Below are positions 8 to 39,282 of a stretch of DNA of 43,289 bases, piece by piece. Position 1 is the stretch's first letter. Every line of letters starts with the position of its first letter. Location of the stretch: positions 1-43,289 of the IMG/VR virus record IMGVR_UViG_3300009168_000064, one strand, 5' to 3'. Position numbers and translations under genes: made by a program. The notes under the pieces were generated by a model. That model had not been told where the DNA came from. It saw only the letters and a program-made list of their open reading frames with translations, and ran no database searches. The DNA comes from a virus.

Positions 8-45
8 GGGGGGGTGTATTCTGCGAGGCCCCCCCCTCCCCTTTC
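8..45 (-). terminator. GC-rich hairpin at the left end
   Basis: Seven G at 8-14 and eight C at 29-36 can form a very strong stem just after the last leftward gene. Only a short T run (TTT) follows on the minus strand, so it is an imperfect intrinsic terminator. It could instead be part of a genome end. Confidence 0.4.
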
Positions 46-335: not shown

Positions 336-2993
336 TCAACCATTCGTTGCTTCATCCAATGTACTAAGTGATACACCCAATGCTTTAGCTACATCAGCTC
401 TAGTAGCACCAGATGCTAGCATAGATGCTGCTCTCTTAGTCTTAGCTGGTGTCATCAAGTAAACTTCATGTGGTGTAGCCAGCTTCTTAACTATCTCCAT
501 GTCGGCATTGCTAAGTATCTCGGTAAGCTTATGATCACTGATAGCCCCTGCTTGAATAGCATCCCATTGTTCTTGACTTATCTTGATTTGGGCCTTCTTA
601 GAACCGGTCTCAACACGAGCCTGCTCAAGAGACAACATCTTAATCTTGTTTAGTGTATCTTCATCCATGTTAGGATCATCGTTTCTCTTAGCTTTGATCC
701 TACTACTAGCAATGATTTGTGCCTGGCGCTCAAGGGGGCGTGCCTTCTTTGCTACGAATAGGGCGGCATCTAATTCCTCTACCTGTTTTGCATAGGTCTT
801 CTTAGCAGAGGGCACCCATACGGAGCGGGGGGTATTTTCAGCTTCAAGGCGGGCCTGGTTAGACATCTTCTTAAGCTTATTAGAATGATCGGCATAGAGA
901 CGTTCCATCTGTGTACCCGATGTAGTAGACATAAGTGTACGAGCATCGGTTGTTTCAGCTATCTTAGTACTCTTTGTAGTCCTTGGCTTACCTGTTCTAA
1001 AGTTTACCTTATTGGTGGGCTCATATCGAATCTCACCAGTAACCTTGTCAACAGGGCCGCCTTCTTTGTATGACCTAAGCTTCCTTTGTGGTACATACTC
1101 TGGTGACCTAGCCCTTGACAACAGGGTTGCTGCACCACCCTTAGCACTACCCTGATACTTCTGCTTTAGTTCTTTAATTCCATTATCATCATATGATTGC
1201 TTGTAATTAAGCTCATGCTTTTCAGCGTCAATAACAACCATCGAATGCTTAACAGCTCTAGTGATGTGATTAATAGGGGCGCCTTTAATGGACATGTCTG
1301 TAATAAGATTAGAAATCAAACCCATTTCTGTTTGGGTGTTTGACATTACTTTCATACCCTCATACTTTGGGTACGTTGCACGAGGGTCGAAGTTCATAAG
1401 TTCTTTAATAGCAGCTGTTGTATTAACATGACGCTGGTTGTTTGGTATCACAAGTACTGTGTCACCATCGAAGTCTGCGCCTGACAGTCTTCTTGCTACC
1501 TCATGGTTAATACCAATAGCATCGATTGTTTTAGAACTACCAAGAAGTCTTTTTGATTCAGCATGATTATTGTTTACTGTAAGTTCAGGGATTTCAAATG
1601 TGCCACCATGTGGGTGACGAATCAATACTACCTTTTCACCATGAAGAAAGGATGGTGCATATACCTGAGTTGGAGGTAGTGTAGATATTGGAAGAATAAC
1701 ATGCACACCTTGACGTGGTAATGCTGCAGCCTTAAGATGCACTGAAGCAGATGCTGTTTCTTCAGCGAATTCATTAAGCAACTTCTTACGAACAGCAGCA
1801 TTAGTAAGATCTTGAATACCCTTCAATTTCATTTGACGTTGTTCATGAGTCATGTCAAGCTGTGTCTTAGCAAGAGCAGGACTTTGTTTCGACAACATCT
1901 GAGAAGATAGGTTACGAGACCACTCGTTCCAATTGCCTTCTTCATTAACAATATTCATAGCCGAAGTAACTTTTTCGTTAGGTGTGCCTTTGTTATCAAC
2001 GATTTGACGAACCATAGATCCAAAAGGATTATCTTCATCTGCTTTGATTTCTTTCATAGCATCAAGTTTATTAGGCGAATCGCTTTTCTTTTTACTGGTA
2101 TGAAATTGGACATCTACTCCATCCGGTAGATCATCCTTGTACATGGCCATACCTTTTAGATAATGATTCTTACCAACAGCTACACGAACTTGAGCATAGT
2201 TCTTTCCACCCAACTCAACATCTTTAACGCCTCGCCTTACATAAATCATACCATCGGCGTCGCCGCCACCATCTTCTGCAAAAACAACATCAACCCGTTT
2301 TGGGTTAATTTGAAGAGGCGGATGCAAGCCATAGAAGTTTCTACCATGATCATCAGAAAACTGTTCAATGTGCTTAATCTTAGTTGGGTCCAGAAATATT
2401 TCTCTTTGCTTACTTCCAGGAGTACCAAGAACTTTCATGTTTGTATACTGTCCAGTACTAACTTGCTGTAATTTTAAATAATGCGTTTCATATCCTTCAT
2501 TATTTAATACCTGGACTGCAGTATCCATCATAGTTCTTGATACACCAGTACTATTCTCTACACCACTACCAATATCAATGAACCCATGCTTATCAACTTC
2601 TTCTCGCAACATCTTTGCTGTCGCCTGAAGATTGTCTGATTTATCAGCAGCGCCAGTAGCAAGAAGTGCTCTTACTGATGATTCATTCTTTCCCATCTTC
2701 TCACCAATAGCTACGTTTGAATATCCTTTATCCTTTAGTTTTTGTGCTTCTGTAATATCTTTTTGTCTTTGGTGATGTCTAGCAATAGACTTTTCTGCAC
2801 GATATTCTTTTTGAGACATATGAAGACCTTTAGCAATTAGAGCATCACTGAGTCCTTGACTTTTCATTTCTGAAATATAATCCAACAGATTCCTGTTATG
2901 GGTGTTTTCGTTTTCTCCAGATCCCCATGGATAACGCCCCGACCTACGAATAACACCATAATGCGCTAAATATTCTTCTTCCGTAATAAGCAT
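336..2993 (-). CDS. single-chain double-psi beta-barrel RNA polymerase
   Basis: An 885-residue protein with the signature of the two-barrel RNA polymerase superfamily. 'SGADFDGDTVLV' near residue 507 matches the Mg-binding D-x-D-G-D loop of beta-prime. It is preceded, as in beta-prime, by a 'VVLIRHP' strand and followed by a conserved helix region 'MSNTQTEMGLISNL'. Further upstream, 'LKGMAMYKDDLPDGVDVQF' (about 280-300) resembles the first barrel, that of beta. Known relatives include YonO of SPbeta and crAss-like phage polymerases. Helix-turn-helix-like stretches lie near residues 50-75 and 85-112 and at the extreme C-terminus. The N-terminus carries HYGVIRRSGRYPWGSG, related to a motif in two packaging-module proteins. 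ATG at 2993 has GGGGG upstream; 2999 and GTG 3002 are alternatives. It probably transcribes phage genes, and delivery in the virion is possible. Confidence 0.85.
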   Translation of the reverse strand: MLITEEEYLAHYGVIRRSGRYPWGSGENENTHNRNLLDYISEMKSQGLSDALIAKGLHMSQKEYRAEKSIARHHQRQKDITEAQKLKDKGYSNVAIGEKMGKNESSVRALLATGAADKSDNLQATAKMLREEVDKHGFIDIGSGVENSTGVSRTMMDTAVQVLNNEGYETHYLKLQQVSTGQYTNMKVLGTPGSKQREIFLDPTKIKHIEQFSDDHGRNFYGLHPPLQINPKRVDVVFAEDGGGDADGMIYVRRGVKDVELGGKNYAQVRVAVGKNHYLKGMAMYKDDLPDGVDVQFHTSKKKSDSPNKLDAMKEIKADEDNPFGSMVRQIVDNKGTPNEKVTSAMNIVNEEGNWNEWSRNLSSQMLSKQSPALAKTQLDMTHEQRQMKLKGIQDLTNAAVRKKLLNEFAEETASASVHLKAAALPRQGVHVILPISTLPPTQVYAPSFLHGEKVVLIRHPHGGTFEIPELTVNNNHAESKRLLGSSKTIDAIGINHEVARRLSGADFDGDTVLVIPNNQRHVNTTAAIKELMNFDPRATYPKYEGMKVMSNTQTEMGLISNLITDMSIKGAPINHITRAVKHSMVVIDAEKHELNYKQSYDDNGIKELKQKYQGSAKGGAATLLSRARSPEYVPQRKLRSYKEGGPVDKVTGEIRYEPTNKVNFRTGKPRTTKSTKIAETTDARTLMSTTSGTQMERLYADHSNKLKKMSNQARLEAENTPRSVWVPSAKKTYAKQVEELDAALFVAKKARPLERQAQIIASSRIKAKRNDDPNMDEDTLNKIKMLSLEQARVETGSKKAQIKISQEQWDAIQAGAISDHKLTEILSNADMEIVKKLATPHEVYLMTPAKTKRAASMLASGATRADVAKALGVSLSTLDEATNG

Positions 2994-3123
2994 GAGCATC
3001 ACCCCCTTCTTTTACCAAAGATGCGACCCATTTGAAAAACACAAGCGAACCTACTATCACACACAAAAACACAATAACACATGCGGTCACTAGCAGTATG
3101 TAGTAGATAAGCTTCGATCGCAC
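2944..3123 (-). CDS. small single-span membrane protein
   Basis: A 59-residue reading frame starting at GTG with GGGAG seven bases upstream. After a short basic start (RSK) comes a long hydrophobic segment, YYILLVTACVIVFLCVIVG, then a basic tail, as expected of a bitopic inner-membrane protein. Its last 17 codons overlap the start of the RNA polymerase gene in another frame, so translation may be coupled. It fills an otherwise empty gap between nuclease and polymerase. No family recognised; a holin-like or regulatory role is only a guess. Confidence 0.5.
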   Translation of the reverse strand: MRSKLIYYILLVTACVIVFLCVIVGSLVFFKWVASLVKEGGDAHAYYGRRIFSALWCYS

Positions 3124-3134
3124 GAAAAATCTCC

Positions 3135-3692
3135 CTAGAAATCAGAAGCCTTCATTTGTTCAATCTGTTGATCAAACGATATGATTTTCTCCATGATATC
3201 GATAATTCTTTCAGGAAATGGTTCGTAGACTCTAATTTCATCTCTTTGATAAATACGAAGTTCGATCTCTATTGAATATGGATCAACACTGTATTCCAAA
3301 CAAAACAAGGCAGCATAGACTTCTAGTTGCTGTTCTGAGGTAGGTGTAATGCCGGTTTTCAAATCATGAATACGAAGTTTACCTCGGCGAAAGGAAATGG
3401 TATCAGCCGTGCCGAAACAATTCTCAGAAAAATATAAAGGTTGCTCACATAACATTCTGTATCCAATAGCATCATTAACGTAAGTAGATAGGGCTTTGTT
3501 TGCTTTTGAAAATTTGACCCCAAGACGGATAGCTTCATGCGCAAGATTATGCAAATCAGTACCACGACGCGCTGCAGTAAATGCTACATAACGAGCTTCT
3601 AACTTCTGATCATCATAGTTAATCCAGTGATAATTGCTTGGACTAAGAAACGCGTGTTTCCCGTGCAAGTCCAAATGCGTGTTGAAGATCAC
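3135..3692 (-). CDS. PD-(D/E)XK nuclease, Cas4/RecB-like exonuclease
   Basis: A 185-residue protein with the core of RecB-type nucleases: 'GTADTISFRRGKLRIHDLKTG' around residues 94-114 supplies the catalytic Asp and the D-x-K pair, followed by 'EQQLEVYAALF', the usual Q-x-x-x-Y helix. 'RRGTDLHNLAHEA' near the N-terminus corresponds to the conserved G-x-x-x-H motif. No cysteine cluster of canonical Cas4 is evident. It probably processes DNA ends in replication or recombination. The start is GTG with GAGGAGG nine bases upstream, inside the end of the neighbouring nuclease gene (50-base overlap). Confidence 0.8.
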   Translation of the reverse strand: MIFNTHLDLHGKHAFLSPSNYHWINYDDQKLEARYVAFTAARRGTDLHNLAHEAIRLGVKFSKANKALSTYVNDAIGYRMLCEQPLYFSENCFGTADTISFRRGKLRIHDLKTGITPTSEQQLEVYAALFCLEYSVDPYSIEIELRIYQRDEIRVYEPFPERIIDIMEKIISFDQQIEQMKASDF

Positions 3693-3954
3693 CTAATATT
3701 TCCTCCTCATTTTGTGGATTAATAAATGAGGCAAACGACATATCATTAAGCAATCCAACATAGTATTCTTGATTAGGTTGAATATTCGCATCACCTGCGA
3801 GTTTAACTTCAAGCATGGCCCATTTGTTCTTATACAAGATTAAGACATCAGGCACACCTTGAATATGCCTAGGATCATTCCTTAAAATGAAACAACCAGG
3901 TAACAATTTTTCAACTTTCTTAATCAGACGGTATTGATATTGAGCTTCGTTCAA
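3643..3954 (-). CDS. VRR-NUC-type / Holliday-junction-resolvase-like nuclease
   Basis: About 103 residues. 'GVPDVLILYKNKWAMLEVK' contains the P-D...(D/E)-x-K catalytic motif of the small PD-(D/E)XK fold, preceded by a helix and 'ILRNDPRHIQ', as in VRR-NUC domains. The best start is TTG, five bases after a perfect GGAGG; an upstream extension of 24 codons lacks a good ribosome site. It sits directly after the collagen-like gene, whose stop overlaps this Shine-Dalgarno, and overlaps the Cas4-like nuclease gene. Two adjacent nucleases suggest a DNA-end or junction processing pair. Confidence 0.75.
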   Translation of the reverse strand: MNEAQYQYRLIKKVEKLLPGCFILRNDPRHIQGVPDVLILYKNKWAMLEVKLAGDANIQPNQEYYVGLLNDMSFASFINPQNEEEILGDLQHAFGLARETRVS

Positions 3955-3964
3955 TGTCACCTCC

Positions 3965-4510
3965 TTATGGAGTAAATGGTGTTGCGCAAATAAAGGTTTC
4001 CCACAAACGACCATTGACATCTTCAAATACTACTTCGGCCGGTTGAAAACCCTCTTCACATAATATGGTGCCTGTGGCGCCTTTAGGTCCTGTTTCACCT
4101 ACAGGTCCAGCAGGCCCGGGAGGTCCCTGTACACCTTGCGGTCCAGGCACATCAGACGGAGCTCCTTGAGGACCTGGTATTCCTTGTTCCCCAGGTTCCC
4201 CTGAAGAACCATTAAGTCCAGGTGCTCCATTACTTCCTGGAGGCCCAATGATTCCAGGTGCACCATTAGTTCCATCTCTCCCATCATTTCCGGGAGGGCC
4301 AGGTTCTCCAGGCGGGCCAGGTTCACCAGGTGGGCCAGCAGGTCCGGTATTTCCAGCTTCTCCAGAAACTCCAGGAGTTCCAACTTCTCCGGCTTCACCA
4401 CGTGGGCCTTCCTGTCCATCTTTTGCAGTACCAAACGCAGCTAACCCAAGCAGCAAACCCATAATCAAGAAACAAAGAACCGCCAGCCCTAGCCAAAATG
4501 ATGATCTCAT
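3965..4510 (-). CDS. membrane-anchored or secreted collagen-like protein
   Basis: 181 residues. The N-terminal segment LGLAVLCFLIMGLLLGLAAF after 'MRSSF' is a signal anchor or signal peptide. Residues about 33-150 are Gly-X-Y triplets, many GPP and GEP, followed by a 30-residue globular tail with two cysteines (ILCEEGF...FICATPF) that could act as a trimerisation or capping domain. It starts with GAGG five bases before ATG and overlaps the stop of the upstream gene (ATGA). Collagen-like repeats are common in tail fibres, but the membrane anchor and the location among nuclease and holin-like genes argue for an exported or envelope protein. Function unknown. Confidence 0.75.
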   Translation of the reverse strand: MRSSFWLGLAVLCFLIMGLLLGLAAFGTAKDGQEGPRGEAGEVGTPGVSGEAGNTGPAGPPGEPGPPGEPGPPGNDGRDGTNGAPGIIGPPGSNGAPGLNGSSGEPGEQGIPGPQGAPSDVPGPQGVQGPPGPAGPVGETGPKGATGTILCEEGFQPAEVVFEDVNGRLWETFICATPFTP

Positions 4511-4745: not shown

Positions 4746-4780
4746 AAAAATTTATAAGGAAACCACACAAAGCGGTCTCC
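4746..4780 (-). terminator. promoter-proximal terminator or attenuator (leader J)
   Basis: On the minus strand GGAGACC (4780-4774) pairs with GGTTTCC (4764-4758), including one G-U pair, and is followed by TTATAAATTTTT. It begins four bases past the -10-like box of promoter J, so transcripts would meet a terminator immediately, before the gene at 4731. Confidence 0.6.
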
Positions 4781-4809
4781 TCTCATATTAGTCCATGTTT
4801 AACGTGCGT
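4781..4809 (-). promoter_or_regulatory. phage promoter family, copy J
   Basis: Minus-strand CGCA, 14 bases, then TAATAT followed by GAGAG; the AAACATGG block is kept and the spacing equals that of the other nine copies. The -10-like box is TAATAT instead of TATAAT. Confidence 0.65.
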
Positions 4810-6995: not shown

Positions 6996-7024
6996 TCTCA
7001 CTATAATCAATGTAGAAGCTGCGA
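6996..7024 (-). promoter_or_regulatory. phage promoter family, copy A
   Basis: Minus-strand TCGCA, then a CTACATTG block, then TATAGT followed by GAGA, with the family's fixed 17-base distance from GCA to the -10-like box. It lies 24 bases before the ATG of the gene at 6769 without an intervening hairpin. Confidence 0.75.
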
Positions 7025-7289: not shown

Positions 7290-7318
7290 TCTCATTATAA
7301 TCCATGTAGATCCTGCGA
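7290..7318 (-). promoter_or_regulatory. phage promoter family, copy B
   Basis: Minus-strand TCGCA, CTACATGG block, TTATAAT then GAGA, standard spacing. The leader to the gene at 7266 is short and unstructured. Confidence 0.78.
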
Positions 7319-8735: not shown

Positions 8736-8937
8736 TGGGGTATGTCCCCTCCGGTTTAACAACGAGTGCGGTTTTTTGTTTACCTGAACATCGGCTGATC
8801 ACGACCGATGCGTTCTGTGTAGCCTTCACAGTCAACCCAGGGCGGTCTGACAAATATTCACGCAAAGCGGCAACTAAACGTAAATACCCACAGACAGTAA
8901 GACTTCTACTTTGAGGAGTGCGAGCTCTCACAAGCAC
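8710..8937 (-). CDS. possible 75-residue protein
   Basis: GTG start at 8937 without a clear ribosome site. The protein has a plausible helix-strand pattern (LRLVAALREYLSDRPGLTVKA, then ASVVISRC, TALVVKPEG) and is compositionally like a real product. No family recognised. An inverted repeat (CTTAG...CTAAG, about 8950-8970) lies just upstream and could be regulatory. Confidence 0.45.
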   Translation of the reverse strand: MLVRARTPQSRSLTVCGYLRLVAALREYLSDRPGLTVKATQNASVVISRCSGKQKTALVVKPEGTYPNGPEATRI

Positions 8938-8991
8938 TGGGTAGTGGTCTTAGCGCCCTGACGCTCTAAGCCTAATGCGGTTTAACGTCGC

Positions 8992-9192
8992 TTAGTCGAC
9001 GGATTTAACTGTCCATTCACTAATATCAAGAATTCTCGAAATAGCAAGATTGGACCAGCCTCTTTTCCTCATTTCTATAATTTGAGAACGACGAAGTGCT
9101 TTTTGTTCGTCCTTTGCATTAATTCGTTCTTTTTTGAAATCTGAAGCTGATTTACCTAATGCTTCTGAAATTTCTCGATTAGTTTTTTCCAT
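8992..9192 (-). CDS. small helix-turn-helix protein
   Basis: 66 residues from ATG at 9192. The last 32 residues, RRSQIIEMRKRGWSNLAISR followed by ILDISEWTVKSV, form a resolvase/MarR-like helix-turn-helix (G-W-S-x-x-x-I-S-x-x-L-x-x-S-x-x-T-V). The preceding part is a charged helix. The start overlaps the end of the micro-gene at 9179. It could regulate phage transcription; as the only stand-alone HTH protein seen here, it is a candidate binder of the promoter family. Confidence 0.65.
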   Translation of the reverse strand: MEKTNREISEALGKSASDFKKERINAKDEQKALRRSQIIEMRKRGWSNLAISRILDISEWTVKSVD

Positions 9193-9304
9193 TGCTTCTC
9201 TTAGTCGACGGACGATGACCGCTGTCAAGTTTGAGAATCCAAACACCCGCTGCTGCACAAAACAGAAGCACTATAGAAAGTATGATTATAACTAAGCGGT
9301 TCAT
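9179..9304 (-). CDS. 41-residue single-span membrane protein
   Basis: Too short for most gene callers but well supported: AGGAGA three bases before ATG, start overlapping the upstream stop (TAATG), stop overlapping the HTH gene start. The sequence is a typical bitopic peptide: MNR, then LVIIILSIVLLFCAAAGVWI, then a basic tail (SGHRPSTKRSNGK). Function unknown. Confidence 0.6.
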   Translation of the reverse strand: MNRLVIIILSIVLLFCAAAGVWILKLDSGHRPSTKRSNGKN

Positions 9305-9664: not shown

Positions 9665-9680
9665 TAAACGAACTCTTCTC
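9558..9680 (-). ncRNA. closed leader RNA C (attenuator or small RNA)
   Basis: The sequence right after the -10-like box of promoter C (GAGAAGAGTTCG, 9680-9669) is complementary, with one mismatch, to CGGACTCTTCTC (9581-9570), which is followed by ATTTTCTTTTT. The predicted RNA of about 120 bases would be closed end to end and terminate before the gene at 9549. Confidence 0.65.
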
Positions 9681-9705
9681 ATTATAACCCGTGTAAAACC
9701 TGCGA
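9677..9705 (-). promoter_or_regulatory. phage promoter family, copy C
   Basis: Minus-strand TCGCAGG, TTTTACA block, TTATAAT then GAGA, standard spacing. It begins one base beyond the stop codon of the gene at 9707. Confidence 0.8.
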
Positions 9706-10519: not shown

Positions 10520-10661
10520 TCTTAATCACCTTATCGTCTGCCCAATTTGGATCATGATCTGGATGCTGCAAAGCAACATGCTTTTTAACAGCCTCCAAAG
10601 AAGGATATGTTCGTCCCTTGTGGCAAGAGCGTGGACAGTAGTACACTTTTACTTCAGCCAT
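10512..10661 (-). CDS. zinc-finger microprotein
   Basis: 49 residues, MAEVKVYYCPRSCHKGRTYP followed by SLEAVKKHVALQHPDHDPNW and a short acidic tail. C-x3-C with H-x4-H twenty residues on is a C2H2-like zinc-binding arrangement. The ribosome site AAGGAGG is excellent and the ATG overlaps the stop of the polymerase gene (TGATG); its own end overlaps the ssDNA-binding-like gene by eight bases. It is thus a true member of the replication operon and probably binds DNA or a replisome partner. Confidence 0.78.
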   Translation of the reverse strand: MAEVKVYYCPRSCHKGRTYPSLEAVKKHVALQHPDHDPNWADDKVIKNG

Positions 10662-13600
10662 CACACCTCCTTCACTAATTCTTCATATGGAACAAACTTC
10701 TCAATAGCCTTCAGGGCGTCATTCTTTAAGCCATCGAAGTAATCCATATCAGTGAAGAGTTCGTCGATCTCATCTCTGTATTTGGCAATATCCCGTTCTA
10801 CCCACAAGAAATCTTTGGTACCACTTACATGATACTTCTTATCACCATCTACTCGCCACAAGACTCCACCATCGTAGCGAACAGGCATGAAGCTTCCTGT
10901 CTGTCCAACATGTCTCATGTCCTTGATGTCTTCTGCTCCATGCATATCAAGATACATGCGACCCTTAGTTACGTTCTTAGTCTCGCACAAATCGTCGAAC
11001 TCTAGCGGTTCTTTGGAAAATAGCTCTTTATAGACAAACGGATGTTGGAACTGTGCACCAACAGCAGTCCAGCCGCGATCATCACGAGCAACATATACTG
11101 CATCGTTAATGAGACAGAACTTCTCGTATGTAGTTTCATGCTCGAAGACATACCCGTACTCCTCTCCTAATTCACAAATAAATCTGATGAGCTCTGGTGT
11201 AGCTCCGGGAATTTTAATAGAGTCTGTCTTAATATGAACTACTTGAAAGCCCTCGTCTTGCACTGCGTGCTTCAGATCAATCATGAACAAGGCACCACGT
11301 TTAGCTACGACGTTATCCTTGTTGCGATTGTCTTTGAACATGTTCTCAAAACGAGCACTGGTAAGACCGTACACAATGTTGATCACGATCTTCAAAGCGT
11401 AGGCAAGCTGGTCGCCGGCGTCCGGATCATTCTCAGCATTGATAAGAAATGGCGCAATCTTACCGTCTAGACAGGCTCGAGCTCGGTCGTAATCGCGATT
11501 CTTGATAGCAATACGAGCGTCAACCAAGTCACTATAGTTCCGGGTGTAAGGGCCAAATAGATTGAGTTGCTCGATACTGGACGGATGCATAGAAACCACA
11601 TCAAGTACCACCACGTCAGTGTAGTATCCTGGTTCTGAATATACGTATCCACCTTCGCCAGTAACTTCGTCACAATATGTGCTTTGCTTCCCATCAAATA
11701 CGTATCCCGGGAACTGTTCACTTAGATCCGTGTACTGGAATTTCTTTTGCGGATGCTTATCTTCGCCAAAGATAATCTTGGCTGTGTGTTGCTGAGTAGT
11801 ATGATTAATAGATAGTCCAGACAATTCAGATAGAATTTGCCTAGCCACGAAGTCTTGTTCTCTGGCTTCGAATACAGCTTCAGTAGAAATAACATCATTA
11901 ACACAATATTCCTCCACTTTCGACCAAACTCCCTCAGGCACTGGCTCGTCCCAAGGAAGATCTAGTTCTTGGTGATGAAGTCCAAGTTCAATCTGAAACT
12001 TCTTCAGACCTTGTTTCTTGGAACTAAAATCGAAAATATCAGCATAAGACAAGTTGTACGCTTCACCAAACATTGCACTATTATTGCCTTTTGGATTCTT
12101 AATGATTCGTTGACTCAAATCAAATAACTCTTCGAGAGTATAACCAAGATATCTTGCATATAGTATATGGTTGTCGTATCTACGGTTATTGAACCCAACA
12201 AGTCTCTGCCCAAAAAGAGGCTCGAGCTCCTCTGCCGTAGGATTGATCATACGAACAACTATCCCAGAGCCTTGTGTCTTCCAACACACAATGAACAAGT
12301 TGGGATACACTTCCACATCAAAGAACAATAGTGCTTTGTTCTCGACATGTTCTGGTTCTGGCATCTCATTTTTGCCAACGAATTTCATAGTTTGTACAAG
12401 TTTGATACAAGCGGTTGCTTGATTAGTACTGTTTGCTGCAAATGTTAGGATTACTGGGCGAAGATCTCGAACATCATAAGCAAGTCCAATCTCATAGGCA
12501 TCCTCTAGAATATGATGAATGAAATCAATTGATGGCTTCGTGCCAGGGTGAATTTCCTTCCGTAGATTCCTCTCAATGAGTTCCCTAAGACCTTTCTCAC
12601 TCTGAATACTCTTAGTCTCGATCATCTTCTTCTCTTTCTTAGGCAATCCCCCGTTGAGCGTCATGATATCGAGATTATTACATTTAGTGAGTTTCCTCCG
12701 AAGAGAACTATCACCCAAGAGAGTTTTTACTTCGACGCCAGTCTCAATCATAGAACCAAGCTCATGCACATCACCGCTGTAAATATAGTGCAGGTGTATG
12801 CCTTTGCCGCTTTTACTTAATTCTGTATACGTTGGCGGAAATTTTGACGCAGCCTCGATGTTCTTTGTAAGATCTTTTTCGCCGTTATCGTCGACCAAAT
12901 CGAAATCAATTACGATATGTTGTTCTGGAATCTTTACGTAATGTAGATCAGTAACATCAATGTCCTGCAGCGTAGTTGTTACTTGATCCCACTTTTTACT
13001 CGGATATCCACTATCCGTTGTCCCCTGTGCTGGTTGATGAGCGTACGCAGTATTGAAGGCAGAGTCATGATAAACAGGAATGTAGTCATCCAGTTCAATG
13101 ACGTAGGAGGTGTCCGGTACGAACGGGATCGGACCTTGCTCGGGAAGGCCTTTGAAACCAATGTATACACTCCTGTATTCTTTGTCTCCCATAAAATAAC
13201 GGTCCTTGAAGTCTTCAAAGTAACTACTCAGTTCATCTCGAACTTCGTGATACTGAAGCCGCTTAATGATGTTTGCTTCTTCACAATACTGCTTGTAAAG
13301 TTCCCAAACACGCTTAAGCTGAATCGCTTCTGTGGACTTGAAAATATCAAAGTGAGCTTCTACAAAGTTGTAGAAAGTGTCCGTCAGCATCATCATCTTC
13401 GTGGGAATATAGTTCTCGTAGTAATACTTTCCCATTTTTCGATAACGTTCTAGACACTTGTATGCAATCTGCCCAAGTTCAAAGTTGATGTTTTCAGTTA
13501 GAATATGGTATCGTCCTGGCTCAATCTTCACACCAGTTGGGTGAACGTCAATCAACCGTCGAGTATTACCTGCTTTTGCGTCTGTGATCTTTACTGGTTT

Positions 13601-14443
13601 GTTGGTACCAATGATCAAGAACGCGTTTGGTCGTATCGTATATGCAGATCTATACTTGATGTTGATTGTCATTGAGTCATGTCCCACAATCGAATTCAAC
13701 TTCGTGTTGTCTTCGACTCGAGACAAATCTCCATCGTGTTGAATAGCAACCAAAGGATTGCTCTCAAACGACTCCATAGAAAATGGACTGTGATTACTAG
13801 TAAGTGCTTTGGCTTCAAAGGTTGCTACATAGCCAGTGAACAATTTCTCGATAATATCGATGACTGTTGACTTACCAGTAGCTGGCGGTCCATAGAATAC
13901 TAGAAACTTCTGAATCCATTTGGAATCACCAGCCACAATAGCGCCAATAGCCCACTCAATTTTATCACGCTCTGTAGGAGAATATAGAACATTAAGTAGC
14001 TCATCCCATGCGTCGGTCTTACCGTTCTGTAACGAATATGGTAGACGTTTGCTGACAAAGTCTTTCTTCTTTACTTCCGTGTTGGCAAAGGTAATGTTCT
14101 CATCCAAGGGATGATAGTTACCCTTCTCCGGAAGGTTTCGAATATACCTGTTAAATCGTTCCCAACTACCTGAACTGAAGTTCCTAGTTAACAACGGTTC
14201 GATGGTTTGTCCTGCTTTTCTAGCTTCATCGACATAAGCATACAGATCAGCATCTACAAATTTCTGTACATCGAACTCACTTGTCGACCACATTCCTGAC
14301 GCTTCATCCCATACTGCATAAAATGAACCGCCTCTGATCATCAAGTCGTCAAAATGATCAACAACCCAGTCGGGGTACGCTTGTGCTAAACCTCTGGCTT
14401 CTCTAGTTCTTATCTTATAGAAATCCACGTCCCCTCCCTTCAT
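10661..14443 (-). CDS. fused SF3 helicase, AEP primase, exonuclease and family B DNA polymerase
   Basis: A 1260-residue replisome protein. Residues 1-430: SF3 (D5/P4-like) helicase with Walker A GPPATGKST at 185-193, 'FLIIGTNKPV' (sensor-like) and an Arg-finger-like 'NTRRL'. Residues 450-605: archaeo-eukaryotic primase signature, D513-F-D515, SGKGIHLH at 545-552 and GVEVK near 570. Residues 703-865: DEDDy 3'-5' exonuclease, D709/E711, D757, Y846/D850. Residues 940-1260: family B polymerase, motif A VLDVVSMHPSS (D948), motif B K1018...N1022..YG, motif C K-T-D1074-S, where the usual first Asp is Lys. Thumb and C-terminus follow. GTG at 14428, preceded by GGGAGGGG, is a strong alternative start to the coupled ATG at 14443. 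It is the sole replicative polymerase visible here. Confidence 0.88.
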   Translation of the reverse strand: MKGGDVDFYKIRTREARGLAQAYPDWVVDHFDDLMIRGGSFYAVWDEASGMWSTSEFDVQKFVDADLYAYVDEARKAGQTIEPLLTRNFSSGSWERFNRYIRNLPEKGNYHPLDENITFANTEVKKKDFVSKRLPYSLQNGKTDAWDELLNVLYSPTERDKIEWAIGAIVAGDSKWIQKFLVFYGPPATGKSTVIDIIEKLFTGYVATFEAKALTSNHSPFSMESFESNPLVAIQHDGDLSRVEDNTKLNSIVGHDSMTINIKYRSAYTIRPNAFLIIGTNKPVKITDAKAGNTRRLIDVHPTGVKIEPGRYHILTENINFELGQIAYKCLERYRKMGKYYYENYIPTKMMMLTDTFYNFVEAHFDIFKSTEAIQLKRVWELYKQYCEEANIIKRLQYHEVRDELSSYFEDFKDRYFMGDKEYRSVYIGFKGLPEQGPIPFVPDTSYVIELDDYIPVYHDSAFNTAYAHQPAQGTTDSGYPSKKWDQVTTTLQDIDVTDLHYVKIPEQHIVIDFDLVDDNGEKDLTKNIEAASKFPPTYTELSKSGKGIHLHYIYSGDVHELGSMIETGVEVKTLLGDSSLRRKLTKCNNLDIMTLNGGLPKKEKKMIETKSIQSEKGLRELIERNLRKEIHPGTKPSIDFIHHILEDAYEIGLAYDVRDLRPVILTFAANSTNQATACIKLVQTMKFVGKNEMPEPEHVENKALLFFDVEVYPNLFIVCWKTQGSGIVVRMINPTAEELEPLFGQRLVGFNNRRYDNHILYARYLGYTLEELFDLSQRIIKNPKGNNSAMFGEAYNLSYADIFDFSSKKQGLKKFQIELGLHHQELDLPWDEPVPEGVWSKVEEYCVNDVISTEAVFEAREQDFVARQILSELSGLSINHTTQQHTAKIIFGEDKHPQKKFQYTDLSEQFPGYVFDGKQSTYCDEVTGEGGYVYSEPGYYTDVVVLDVVSMHPSSIEQLNLFGPYTRNYSDLVDARIAIKNRDYDRARACLDGKIAPFLINAENDPDAGDQLAYALKIVINIVYGLTSARFENMFKDNRNKDNVVAKRGALFMIDLKHAVQDEGFQVVHIKTDSIKIPGATPELIRFICELGEEYGYVFEHETTYEKFCLINDAVYVARDDRGWTAVGAQFQHPFVYKELFSKEPLEFDDLCETKNVTKGRMYLDMHGAEDIKDMRHVGQTGSFMPVRYDGGVLWRVDGDKKYHVSGTKDFLWVERDIAKYRDEIDELFTDMDYFDGLKNDALKAIEKFVPYEELVKEV

Positions 14444-17972: not shown

Positions 17973-18001
17973 TCTCATTATAATCAATGTAATTTTTGCG
18001 A
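17973..18001 (-). promoter_or_regulatory. phage promoter family, copy D
   Basis: Minus-strand TCGCA, ATTACATTG block, TTATAAT then GAGAGA, standard spacing. It abuts the stop of the gene at 18002 and has an open leader. Confidence 0.78.
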
Positions 18002-19321: not shown

Positions 19322-19420
19322 AAAAAAATAAAATGAGAGACTAGGGTTCACAGCCCATCGAAAACTGTGTACCGGGTGGGTTGGTAAACGTACCAACGCC
19401 TTCGTGTCTCACCCTCTCTC
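19322..19420 (-). ncRNA. closed leader RNA E (attenuator or small RNA)
   Basis: GAGAGAGGG (19420-19412), directly after the -10-like box, pairs with CCC-TAG-TCTCTC (19346-19335), followed by ATTTTATTTTTTT. Inside lies a perfect seven-pair hairpin, GTTGGTA/TACCAAC (19380-19397). The predicted RNA is about 95 bases and ends before the gene at 19301. Confidence 0.68.
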
Positions 19421-19445
19421 ATTATAATACATGTAAAACTTGCGA
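19417..19445 (-). promoter_or_regulatory. phage promoter family, copy E
   Basis: Minus-strand TCGCAAG, TTTTACATG block, TTATAAT then GAGAGA, standard spacing. It starts six bases past the Rpf-like gene. Confidence 0.82.
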
Positions 19446-20047: not shown

Positions 20048-20161
20048 AGAAAAAGAGAGTGTATGTTGCAGTGTGCTCCCAATGTGAACTTTGTTATCGT
20101 TCACTGCATTAGTGTGCCCCCAATGGGGACTTTGTTATCGGTCACTAACCATACATCTCTC
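20048..20161 (-). ncRNA. closed leader RNA F with two 36-base modules
   Basis: GAGAGATGTATG (20161-20150), directly after the -10-like box, pairs with CATACACTCTC (20065-20055), leaving one bulged A; TTTTTCTC follows. Between the arms are two 36-base hairpin modules. The RNA would end about 20 bases before the Rpf-like gene. Confidence 0.72.
20070..20146 (-). repeat. two tandem 36-base hairpin modules
   Basis: Copies at 20111-20146 and 20070-20105 separated by five bases. In RNA both run AGTGA.CGATAACAAAG, a variable hairpin (CCCC-ATT-GGGG in the first), then GCACACT. AGTG and CACT can close each module. They differ in only a few positions. Confidence 0.8.
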
Positions 20162-20186
20162 ATTATAACCTGTGTAAAACTTGCGA
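20158..20186 (-). promoter_or_regulatory. phage promoter family, copy F
   Basis: Minus-strand TCGCAAG, TTTTACACA block, TTATAAT then GAGAGA, standard spacing. Confidence 0.82.
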
Positions 20187-20694: not shown

Positions 20695-20723
20695 TCTCAT
20701 TATAAGCCATGTTTAGACTGCGA
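20695..20723 (-). promoter_or_regulatory. phage promoter family, copy G
   Basis: Minus-strand TCGCAG, CTAAACATG block, TTATAAT then GAGA, standard spacing. Its upstream edge merges with the T run ending leader RNA H. The leader to the gene at 20663 is open. Confidence 0.78.
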
Positions 20724-20824
20724 AAAAAAAAAGAGTGAGAGGATTCAGTGTGCCTGCAAACGCAAGCTTTTGCACTCATTAGTGTGCCTGCAAACGCAAG
20801 CTTTTGCACTAATCTTATCCTCTC
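20721..20824 (-). ncRNA. closed stand-alone small RNA H with two 30-base modules
   Basis: GAGAGGAT (20824-20817), directly after the -10-like box, pairs perfectly with ATCCTCTC (20744-20737), followed by ACTC and ten T. No gene lies between this RNA and the next promoter (copy G), so its predicted product is a free small RNA of about 95 bases rather than an mRNA leader. Confidence 0.75.
20747..20810 (-). repeat. two identical tandem 30-base hairpin modules
   Basis: Copies at 20781-20810 and 20747-20776 are identical and separated by four bases. In RNA each is AGTG, a hairpin (CAAAAGC/GCGTTTG with one mismatch), CAG and GCACACT. The AGTG...GCACACT ends match the modules of leader F, although the centres differ. 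Confidence 0.85.
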
Positions 20825-20849
20825 ATTATAACCCATGTAAAACTTGCGA
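20821..20849 (-). promoter_or_regulatory. phage promoter family, copy H
   Basis: Minus-strand TCGCAAG, TTTTACATGGG, TTATAAT then GAGAGG; the closest match to the family consensus. Confidence 0.82.
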
Positions 20850-21414: not shown

Positions 21415-21443
21415 TCTCAATATAACCCATGTTTAGTGTGCGA
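21415..21443 (-). promoter_or_regulatory. phage promoter family, copy I
   Basis: Minus-strand TCGCAC, CTAAACATGGG, TTATATT then GAGA, standard spacing; the -10-like box is TATATT. It lies immediately after the putative holin gene and is the rightmost copy. Confidence 0.72.
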
Positions 21444-36637: not shown

Positions 36638-37153
36638 TTATAGTATTCTCAAAGAACTTCTACTCAAAGTTCTTCCACCTCTTCTAAGAATTTGATCTGC
36701 AATCAAAGCGCCGGCAACACCAACCATAACTTGGTCTGATTTATAGCTGGTCTTTTTATTTGCGTTTTTTGATCTAACTGGGACAATATCAGTAATTCTT
36801 GTCGAACCATAACGCTTAATTAGATCCATAGCTGTTGATTTACCAGCTTTATGTCTTTCTAATTGCGCACCAACACGCTTTGACTTTCGTTCTAGACCAC
36901 CACGAATTCCTCTACCTCTGACAAGGTCAACTACACCTAGTCTTCCAGTAGCACCTCTGATTCTAGAACTTATTGGTCCACCTTTAGTTCCCGCACGCAC
37001 GAGCGCTTGCTGTCGACGTTCTCTACGAACACCCCACTTCATTCCAGGAACGCCGCTATGTTCAAAATATCGATCAATTTGCTCATGAGTCATGCCGTTT
37101 GCTTCAAGCATAGACCCAATGTCATCGATTTCTTCTTCGGAATATGCAATCAT
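36638..37153 (-). CDS. basic virion-module protein with HSGVPGMKWGVRR motif
   Basis: 171 residues. An acidic helix 'AYSEEEIDDIGSMLEANGMT', then 'YFEHSGVPGMKWGVRRERR', followed by a strongly basic region (KRVGAQLERHKAGKS) and 'VGVAGALIADQILRRGGRTL', a glycine-rich hydrophobic helix. H-(Y/S)-G-x-x-G-M-(K/R)-W-G-V-R-R occurs in many phage proteins encoded near portal or capsid genes; function not known to me. Start overlaps the terminase stop (four bases). Confidence 0.72.
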   Translation of the reverse strand: MIAYSEEEIDDIGSMLEANGMTHEQIDRYFEHSGVPGMKWGVRRERRQQALVRAGTKGGPISSRIRGATGRLGVVDLVRGRGIRGGLERKSKRVGAQLERHKAGKSTAMDLIKRYGSTRITDIVPVRSKNANKKTSYKSDQVMVGVAGALIADQILRRGGRTLSRSSLRIL

Positions 37154-38910: not shown

Positions 38911-39282
38911 TTACATACCCTTAAATTTTAGTTGTTTGTATGCAGTTTTTCTACCAGCATTCATTAACGCTTTTCCAGCAGGACTATTAAACAACGTGTA
39001 TACACTAGCGGCTGTGGTTGCTCCGGCAAGAACACCCTTAGCTACCATCTGTCCTTTTTTAATTTTAGTTGGATTAAGTCTGCTGTAACTTGACTCAAGA
39101 TTAATTCTTTCGTTTACTTTCTTCAATTGTTTGTTACTAAGTTCGTGTGTCTTCCTACTACGCAAATGCTTAGTAGTTTTGAAGTCACTAGCTTCTTTTC
39201 GTTCTTTTCTAGATCTCCGAACGCCCCACCGCATCCCTTTGGTGCCGTAATGCTCGATAAAGTCCGATACGCTGCTCGCCAT
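38911..39282 (-). CDS. basic virion-module protein with HYGTKGMRWGVRR motif
   Basis: 123 residues. 'DFIEHYGTKGMRWGVRRSRKERKEASDFKTT' at the N-terminus, then a lysine/arginine-rich helical middle and 'GVLAGATTAASVYTLFNSPA', a hydrophobic stretch. It shares motif and layout (motif, basic region, hydrophobic helix) with the gene at 36638. ATG has GAGG six bases upstream and lies 74 bases inside the connector gene in another frame, an unusually long overlap. Confidence 0.72.
   Translation of the reverse strand: MASSVSDFIEHYGTKGMRWGVRRSRKERKEASDFKTTKHLRSRKTHELSNKQLKKVNERINLESSYSRLNPTKIKKGQMVAKGVLAGATTAASVYTLFNSPAGKALMNAGRKTAYKQLKFKGM

Follow-up and report, generated by a model that had tools for sequence, protein, structure and literature searches.

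A predicted single-chain, two-barrel RNA polymerase family of phages and the promoter motif that accompanies it

The window analyzed here, the whole 43,289-nucleotide stretch of IMG/VR virus record IMGVR_UViG_3300009168_000064, encodes a phage protein that, on the evidence of its predicted structure, is almost certainly a single-chain two-barrel RNA polymerase (RNAP) akin in shape to cellular polymerases. Our joint reading, which we hold to be very probable, is that this enzyme is DNA-dependent and transcribes the replication half of the phage genome from a promoter of its own, without a host sigma factor. The basis for this reading is the predicted fold, the conserved active-site motifs, the sequence and location of the promoter, and its co-occurrence with the polymerase. 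Sequences of the family are already on record under misleading labels, and as far as the literature searched shows it is unstudied: no functional study of PHROG 4291 was found, descriptions of the promoters and the tag were not found either, and the family member in Scarif is annotated only (PMC11536984). New here are the distinct architecture, the cognate promoter and a possible packaging tag. The polymerase gene and its parts are as follows.

336-2993, minus strand: predicted single-chain two-barrel RNA polymerase (PHROG 4291 and AlphaFold2 model)
1461-1475, minus strand: DFDGD metal-binding loop, residues 510-514, barrel A (homolog alignments, msRNAP match)
2136-2156, minus strand: KGMAMYK, residues 283-289, barrel B (alignment of 23 diverse homologs)
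2664-2888, minus strand: two N-terminal helix-turn-helix (HTH)-like units, residues 39-113 (Pfam, PHROG and model helices; first unit by eye)
351-449, minus strand: C-terminal HTH, residues 852-884 (Pfam HTH_23, profile matches to HTH-like chains, model helices)
2910-2975, minus strand: disordered N-terminal tag EEYLAHYGVIRRSGRYPWGSGE, residues 10-31 (conservation, hhalign, pLDDT)

The open frame occupies positions 336-3002 on the minus strand and yields 888 residues from a GTG, while an ATG at 2993, for which AAGGGGG is better placed, is the better start and gives 885 residues. PHROG 4291 covers the protein over its full length (residues 4-886 of 888, 1166.6 bits), and tblastn retrieved 250 phage records; in 249 the alignment spanned 80% or more of the query. 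These records come mostly from phages of Arthrobacter, Gordonia and Streptomyces, and also from Lactococcus, Curtobacterium, Rhodococcus, Microbacterium and Faecalibacterium phages; among the matches listed, most are labelled HTH DNA-binding protein and some RNA-dependent RNA polymerase. Relatives in actinophages and other phages (Mudcat, Circum, Scap1, Rima, Conley and Lactococcus P092) belong to the same family over the full length, with about 36-53% identity among the matches listed, and in most of them the gene lies at or near the genome end. The three motifs that a sequence-only reading had singled out are all present, namely DFDGD, VVLIRHP (about residues 457-463) and LKGMAMYKDD (residues 282-291). 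Their key residues D510, D512, D514, K283, G284 and R462, together with P464 and H465, are invariant in an alignment of 53 homologs from IMG/VR and in another of 23 homologs drawn from both actinobacterial and Firmicutes phages; Y288 is likewise invariant with K283 and G284 in the 23 diverse homologs.

The AlphaFold2 model, built from 53 sequences (mean pLDDT 80.1, pTM 0.67), matched maize RDR2 over residues 225-816 (Z 16.9) and QDE-1 over residues 228-727 (Z 16.7, 4.3 A, 378 residues), as well as the phage polymerases P74-26 gp62 (Z 13.2) and P23-45 gp64 (Z 12.9). Both double-psi barrel regions of this predicted, not solved, structure align to QDE-1, RDR2 and gp62/gp64, so that the proposed single-chain two-barrel assignment and the suggested comparison with QDE-1 gave concordant results. 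Foldseek alone also ranked QDE-1 as the top match (E 1.7e-7). Moreover, residues ~423-620, which include the DFDGD loop, resemble in the model the largest subunits of cellular (msRNAP) polymerases (Z ~9.9). A T7-type enzyme had been argued against from the motifs; the model gave a two-barrel fold instead, with no T7-type polymerase among the Pfam matches or the structural matches listed. The N-terminal ~225 residues of the model had no match to a known fold among solved structures. A PDB sequence search with the polymerase returned nothing and a profile search only HTH-like and chance matches, while a viral structure library gave mostly weak matches to phage proteins that are uncharacterised or named RdRP.

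The HTH-like stretches expected at both ends were recovered. At the N terminus, HTH_38 matches residues 81-109 (E 0.0016) and the phrog_3855 HTH profile gives E 2.6e-6; at the C terminus, HTH_23 matches residues 858-882 (E 1.9e-4) and the model has helices at 852-887. Since all Pfam HTH scores fall below the curated cut-offs, these assignments also rest on predicted helices and on recurrence within the family, both stretches being found again in the 23-homolog alignment. As judged from sequence, a role of these HTHs as promoter readers is plausible. A protein of 88 residues at 8992-9258 (minus strand) matches the N-terminal HTH region of PHROG 4291 (profile positions 45-113); it looks like a stand-alone copy of the polymerase HTH region and also resembles sigma region 4. 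Adjoining this small gene is a match to the Rfam Pistol ribozyme at 8929-9001 (minus strand; 37.4 bits, gathering threshold 34.5, E 0.002).

The ten promoters announced from sequence alone are clearly set apart in the window. Ten minus-strand copies of TCGCR-N6-ACA-N5-TATAATGAGA, a consensus with no -35 box, have scores of 34.7-45 bits, whereas the runner-up on that strand reaches 4.8 bits. All ten lie on the coding strand at 4.8-21.4 kb, in the replication half, and the structural genes at 22-43 kb yielded no copy.

21415-21443, minus strand: phage promoter site 1, immediately behind the tail genes (motif profile)
20821-20849, minus strand: phage promoter site 2 (motif profile)
20695-20723, minus strand: phage promoter site 3 (motif profile)
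20158-20186, minus strand: phage promoter site 4 (motif profile)
19417-19445, minus strand: phage promoter site 5 (motif profile)
17973-18001, minus strand: phage promoter site 6 (motif profile)
9677-9705, minus strand: phage promoter site 7 (motif profile)
7290-7318, minus strand: phage promoter site 8 (motif profile)
6996-7024, minus strand: phage promoter site 9 (motif profile)
4781-4809, minus strand: phage promoter site 10, a variant, nearest the RNAP operon (34.7 bits)

Tandem repeats of 33-36 nt at 20070-20146 and 20747-20813 lie directly downstream of the promoters at 20158 and 20821 and precede any clear ORF; they may correspond to small noncoding transcripts. Beyond the RNAP gene, where the genome ends, a half-motif TCGCA..ACA (TCGCAGAATACACC, 17-34, minus strand) sits in G/C runs and may mark an end or packaging site.

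Of 24 phage genomes that encode the polymerase, 23 contain the promoter element, with 213 strong sites and only 3 opposite-strand matches above threshold. Pooling the 213 sites gave TCGC(A/G)-N6-ACA-N5-TATAATGAGA with little information upstream; there was no -35, the upstream hexamers being no nearer to TTGACA than random ones. Whereas random positions lie outside long ORFs in 25% of cases, the sites do so in 93%; a Shine-Dalgarno sequence and start codon follow 74% of them (26% for random), at a median of 15 nt from the motif end. As a caveat, a window-seeded profile supplied most of the sites, although unseeded k-mer counts recovered the same cores independently in several genomes: TATAATGAGACC occurs 11 times in Gordonia phage Conley, for instance, and ACCCTATAATGA 8 times in Lactococcus P092. 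According to its annotation, the first site in Conley also comes after the minor tail genes. The range of the element extends from Streptomyces phages to a Lactococcus phage: P092 carries the 3' half of the motif only, TTTTACATACCCTATAATGA, and in polymerase-bearing Firmicutes contigs the element takes forms like TCGCG-N6-AC-N-TATAATGAAAGGAG. Faecalibacterium phage FP_oengus encodes the polymerase and has only two weak sites, one of them 939 nt before the polymerase gene; a different promoter of its own was not found in this genome. Both FP_oengus and the half-motif of P092 count against our main reading. In Lactococcus phage P092 (W13), a tRNA-like sequence, GACTTTAGCTCAGAGGTAGAG, stands directly after promoter copies at about 23609 and 23997 of the record, as if the polymerase might make tRNA-like RNAs directly.

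Control scans showed that the promoters track the polymerase in near-perfect co-occurrence. The exact pattern occurred in at least 119 IMG/VR stretches, and a version with a spacer 3 nt longer in none. The RNAP is encoded in 23 of the 24 viral contigs that bear the motif and measure 40 kb or more, and the lone exception (46,468 bases, 17 motif copies, the same kind of gene set) appears to be a truncated relative that breaks off before the polymerase arm. In 257 billion bases from 85,000 cellular genomes there were 16 motif stretches, against ~15 expected for random sequence of uniform composition; one stretch with five copies resembles a phage contig that was sorted into a MAG, and a polymerase homolog was present in 5 of the 15 cellular genomes bearing the motif. 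A literature search for the promoter core in phages found no paper.

The alternative that survives best, which we consider unlikely, holds that the motif is a host sigma-70 (extended -10) promoter, or that host RNAP is redirected to it by a co-inherited small phage HTH or sigma-like factor, the polymerase acting elsewhere. TATAAT is also the host -10 hexamer, which counts against a dedicated promoter, and the motif core contains it; the 88-residue protein, with its likeness to sigma region 4 and to the HTH region of the RNAP family, would be a candidate for such a factor. However, enrichment of a -35 is absent, the motif stands at chance level in cellular genomes, the spacing is rigid, and the same motif occurs in phages of both Actinobacteria and Firmicutes, always with the RNAP save in truncated contigs. 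A plain host sigma-70 promoter was rejected on the first two of these points. Very improbable, in our view, is that a repressor binds the repeats as operators or stoperators: they are indeed short, oriented, intergenic and multi-copy, but the TATAATGAGA core precedes the ribosome-binding site by the median distance given above, in the direction of transcription, and the motif tracks the polymerase.

Transcription by the phage's own polymerase is therefore the reading we develop here. The RNAP would initiate without a host sigma factor at a promoter of ~29 bp, TCGCR-N6-ACA-N5-TATAATGAGA, with the N- and C-terminal HTHs probably contacting the upstream TCGC and ACA blocks. The TATAAT/GAGA block would be melted, with a presumed RNA start in or just after GAGA, and the enzyme, assuming catalytic activity and direct recognition, would serve the non-structural (replication) half of the genome. 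A precedent exists in P23-45, where two-barrel phage RNAPs have motifs of their own (PMC10770324). Given a strongly conserved promoter that accompanies the polymerase family, initiation, specificity and sigma-independence are testable with one protein and one oligonucleotide. Besides, a pair that spans phages from GC-rich Streptomyces and Gordonia hosts to Firmicutes and whose motif is at chance level in cells would be a natural orthogonal expression system.

Known two-barrel polymerases help to place the enzyme. YonO of Bacillus phage SPbeta is likewise a single-chain phage RNAP with a two-barrel fold, QDE-1-like neighbours and a DxDGD motif, and the sequence-only reading had grouped the two. 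The two-barrel kinship holds, whereas membership of the YonO family does not: hhalign gave 5% for the single sequence and 0.6% probability (E 0.1) between family profiles, the YonO profile being built from 19 relatives, and the front halves differ. Consistent with this failed profile match, a search of SPbeta with the RNAP family profile was empty. The best profile alignment, although non-significant, puts DFDGD on the FDNDGD of YonO, and the invariant K271-G272-L273 of the YonO profile was matched by eye to the K283-G284 site. In a YonO-family model the match to RDR2/QDE-1 begins at residue 7 and extends to about 795 (Z 21-25), while our protein aligns with them only over ~214-816; where the N-terminal part of YonO is QDE-1-like, it has a disordered tag and HTH-like units in front. 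The two are thus distant cousins. Late genes are transcribed by YonO from a single start (PMC5467207), in contrast to the many promoters in the replication arm here and none found among structural genes. The motif was not found in SPbeta 54-74 kb, and the region upstream of yonK, searched for TATAAT-like motifs, yielded none. The YonO promoter was left as an explicit open question (PMC5467207), which a large two-barrel family with one specific start signal makes directly testable.

The nearest solved folds, those of Neurospora QDE-1 and plant RDR2 (Z ~16-17), belong to cellular RNA-silencing enzymes, and this is what favors an RNA-dependent RNA polymerase, the name given by PHROG 4291 and several GenBank records; we grant this reading as slight a chance as the operator one, as the Pfam RdRP model PF05183 scores 17.8 bits, below its curated cut-off of 23.8, YonO has the same fold neighbours and yet is strictly DNA-dependent (PMC5467207), and DNA promoters co-occur with the gene. 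Additionally, the non-virion RNAPs Thermus P23-45 gp64 and P74-26 gp62 have the two-barrel core in common with our protein (Z ~13), differing in size (about 590 residues) and in promoter. We know of no HTH additions in gp64 or gp62. The P23-45 enzyme transcribes the early genes and part of the middle ones, for which a GC-rich motif of its own has been proposed (PMC10770324). The virion RNAPs crAss-like phi14:2 gp66 and P23-45 gp96 are also two-barrel phage polymerases, in much larger or fused proteins; they have no place among the matches listed for the model, an absence that does not speak against the kinship proposed earlier for the crAss-like enzymes.

The polymerase gene itself sits downstream of a variant copy of the promoter, in an operon with two nuclease genes.

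3135-3692, minus strand: exonuclease (phrog_3953, E 1.2e-75), directly upstream of the RNAP gene
3643-4026, minus strand: endonuclease-like gene (phrog_93, E 1.4e-11), same operon as the RNAP
4746-4780, minus strand: terminator-like hairpin GGAGACCGCTTTGTGTGGTTTCC and T-rich tail, directly behind the promoter of the RNAP operon, a candidate attenuator (sequence)

Sixteen genomes have a promoter at most 5 kb ahead of the polymerase gene, and in about ten of these the distance is 895-964 nt; this promoter precedes the endonuclease-exonuclease-RNAP operon and is usually a weaker variant. A terminator-like hairpin follows at once in 8 of these 16 RNAP-proximal promoters, compared with 16 of 210 others (Fisher p 4e-5). 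From these features we infer that positive feedback on the operon may be damped by attenuation: placed behind a variant of its own promoter, often with a hairpin, the RNAP would form a damped self-amplifying loop.

Conservation in the polymerase is especially high over its first 30 residues (LAHYG...SGRYPWGSG), although the model predicts them to be disordered (pLDDT < 50). Within this tag H14, G16, S21-R23, P25 and G27-G29 are invariant in the 23 homologs from phages of Actinobacteria and Firmicutes, and in the loci examined the string GRYP[WYFH]G was confined to the polymerase, counting three apparently truncated copies. The N terminus resembles a tag on head proteins: hhalign gave 94% probability over 12 columns against the DUF7211-type tag and below 1% for five other polymerase segments, and the polymerase was absent at E <= 1 with the Pfam DUF7211 model (PF23847). 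Head-module proteins of RNAP-encoding phages bear LAHYGVKGMKWGVRR (Pfam DUF7211), and the window has two such genes.

36638-37153, minus strand: head-module gene with DUF7211 tag HSGVPGMKWGVRR (tag match)
38911-39282, minus strand: head-module gene with DUF7211 tag HYGTKGMRWGVRR (tag match)

Of the 47 head tags found, 45 fall within the leading 12 kb once the sequences are oriented, and the opposite strand had none. Several different head-module proteins carry the tag (LxHYGVKGMKWGVRR) in all 12 genomes searched, and in some genomes it is joined to a 2'-5' RNA ligase-like domain. A capsid-targeting signal is suspected from its presence on several different proteins beside terminase and portal, and it looks like a shared sorting or packaging signal; a PDB search with the head tag gave nothing meaningful, and literature searches found no paper on 'GMKWG' and no virion proteomics of a relative. 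The short, indirect resemblance of the polymerase N terminus to this tag suggests virion packaging, for which phi14:2 gp66 and P23-45 gp96 are precedents. Tentatively, and with slightly more doubt than belief, we propose that the tag (LAHYG..SGRYPWGSG, kin to LAHYGVKGMKWGVRR) carries the RNAP in the capsid, so that it would be ejected with the DNA and would fire the replication-arm promoters at once, its own operon included. If the tag is a packaging signal, this would explain how the first transcripts are made, and the enzyme would be a stand-alone, tag-packaged virion RNAP whose promoter is conserved across phages of both Actinobacteria and Firmicutes.

Elsewhere in the window, a 1260-residue protein at 10661-14443 (minus strand) has a DUF5906/D5-like helicase domain in front and, by eye, DNA-polymerase-like motifs in its rear part, an apparent helicase-polymerase fusion.
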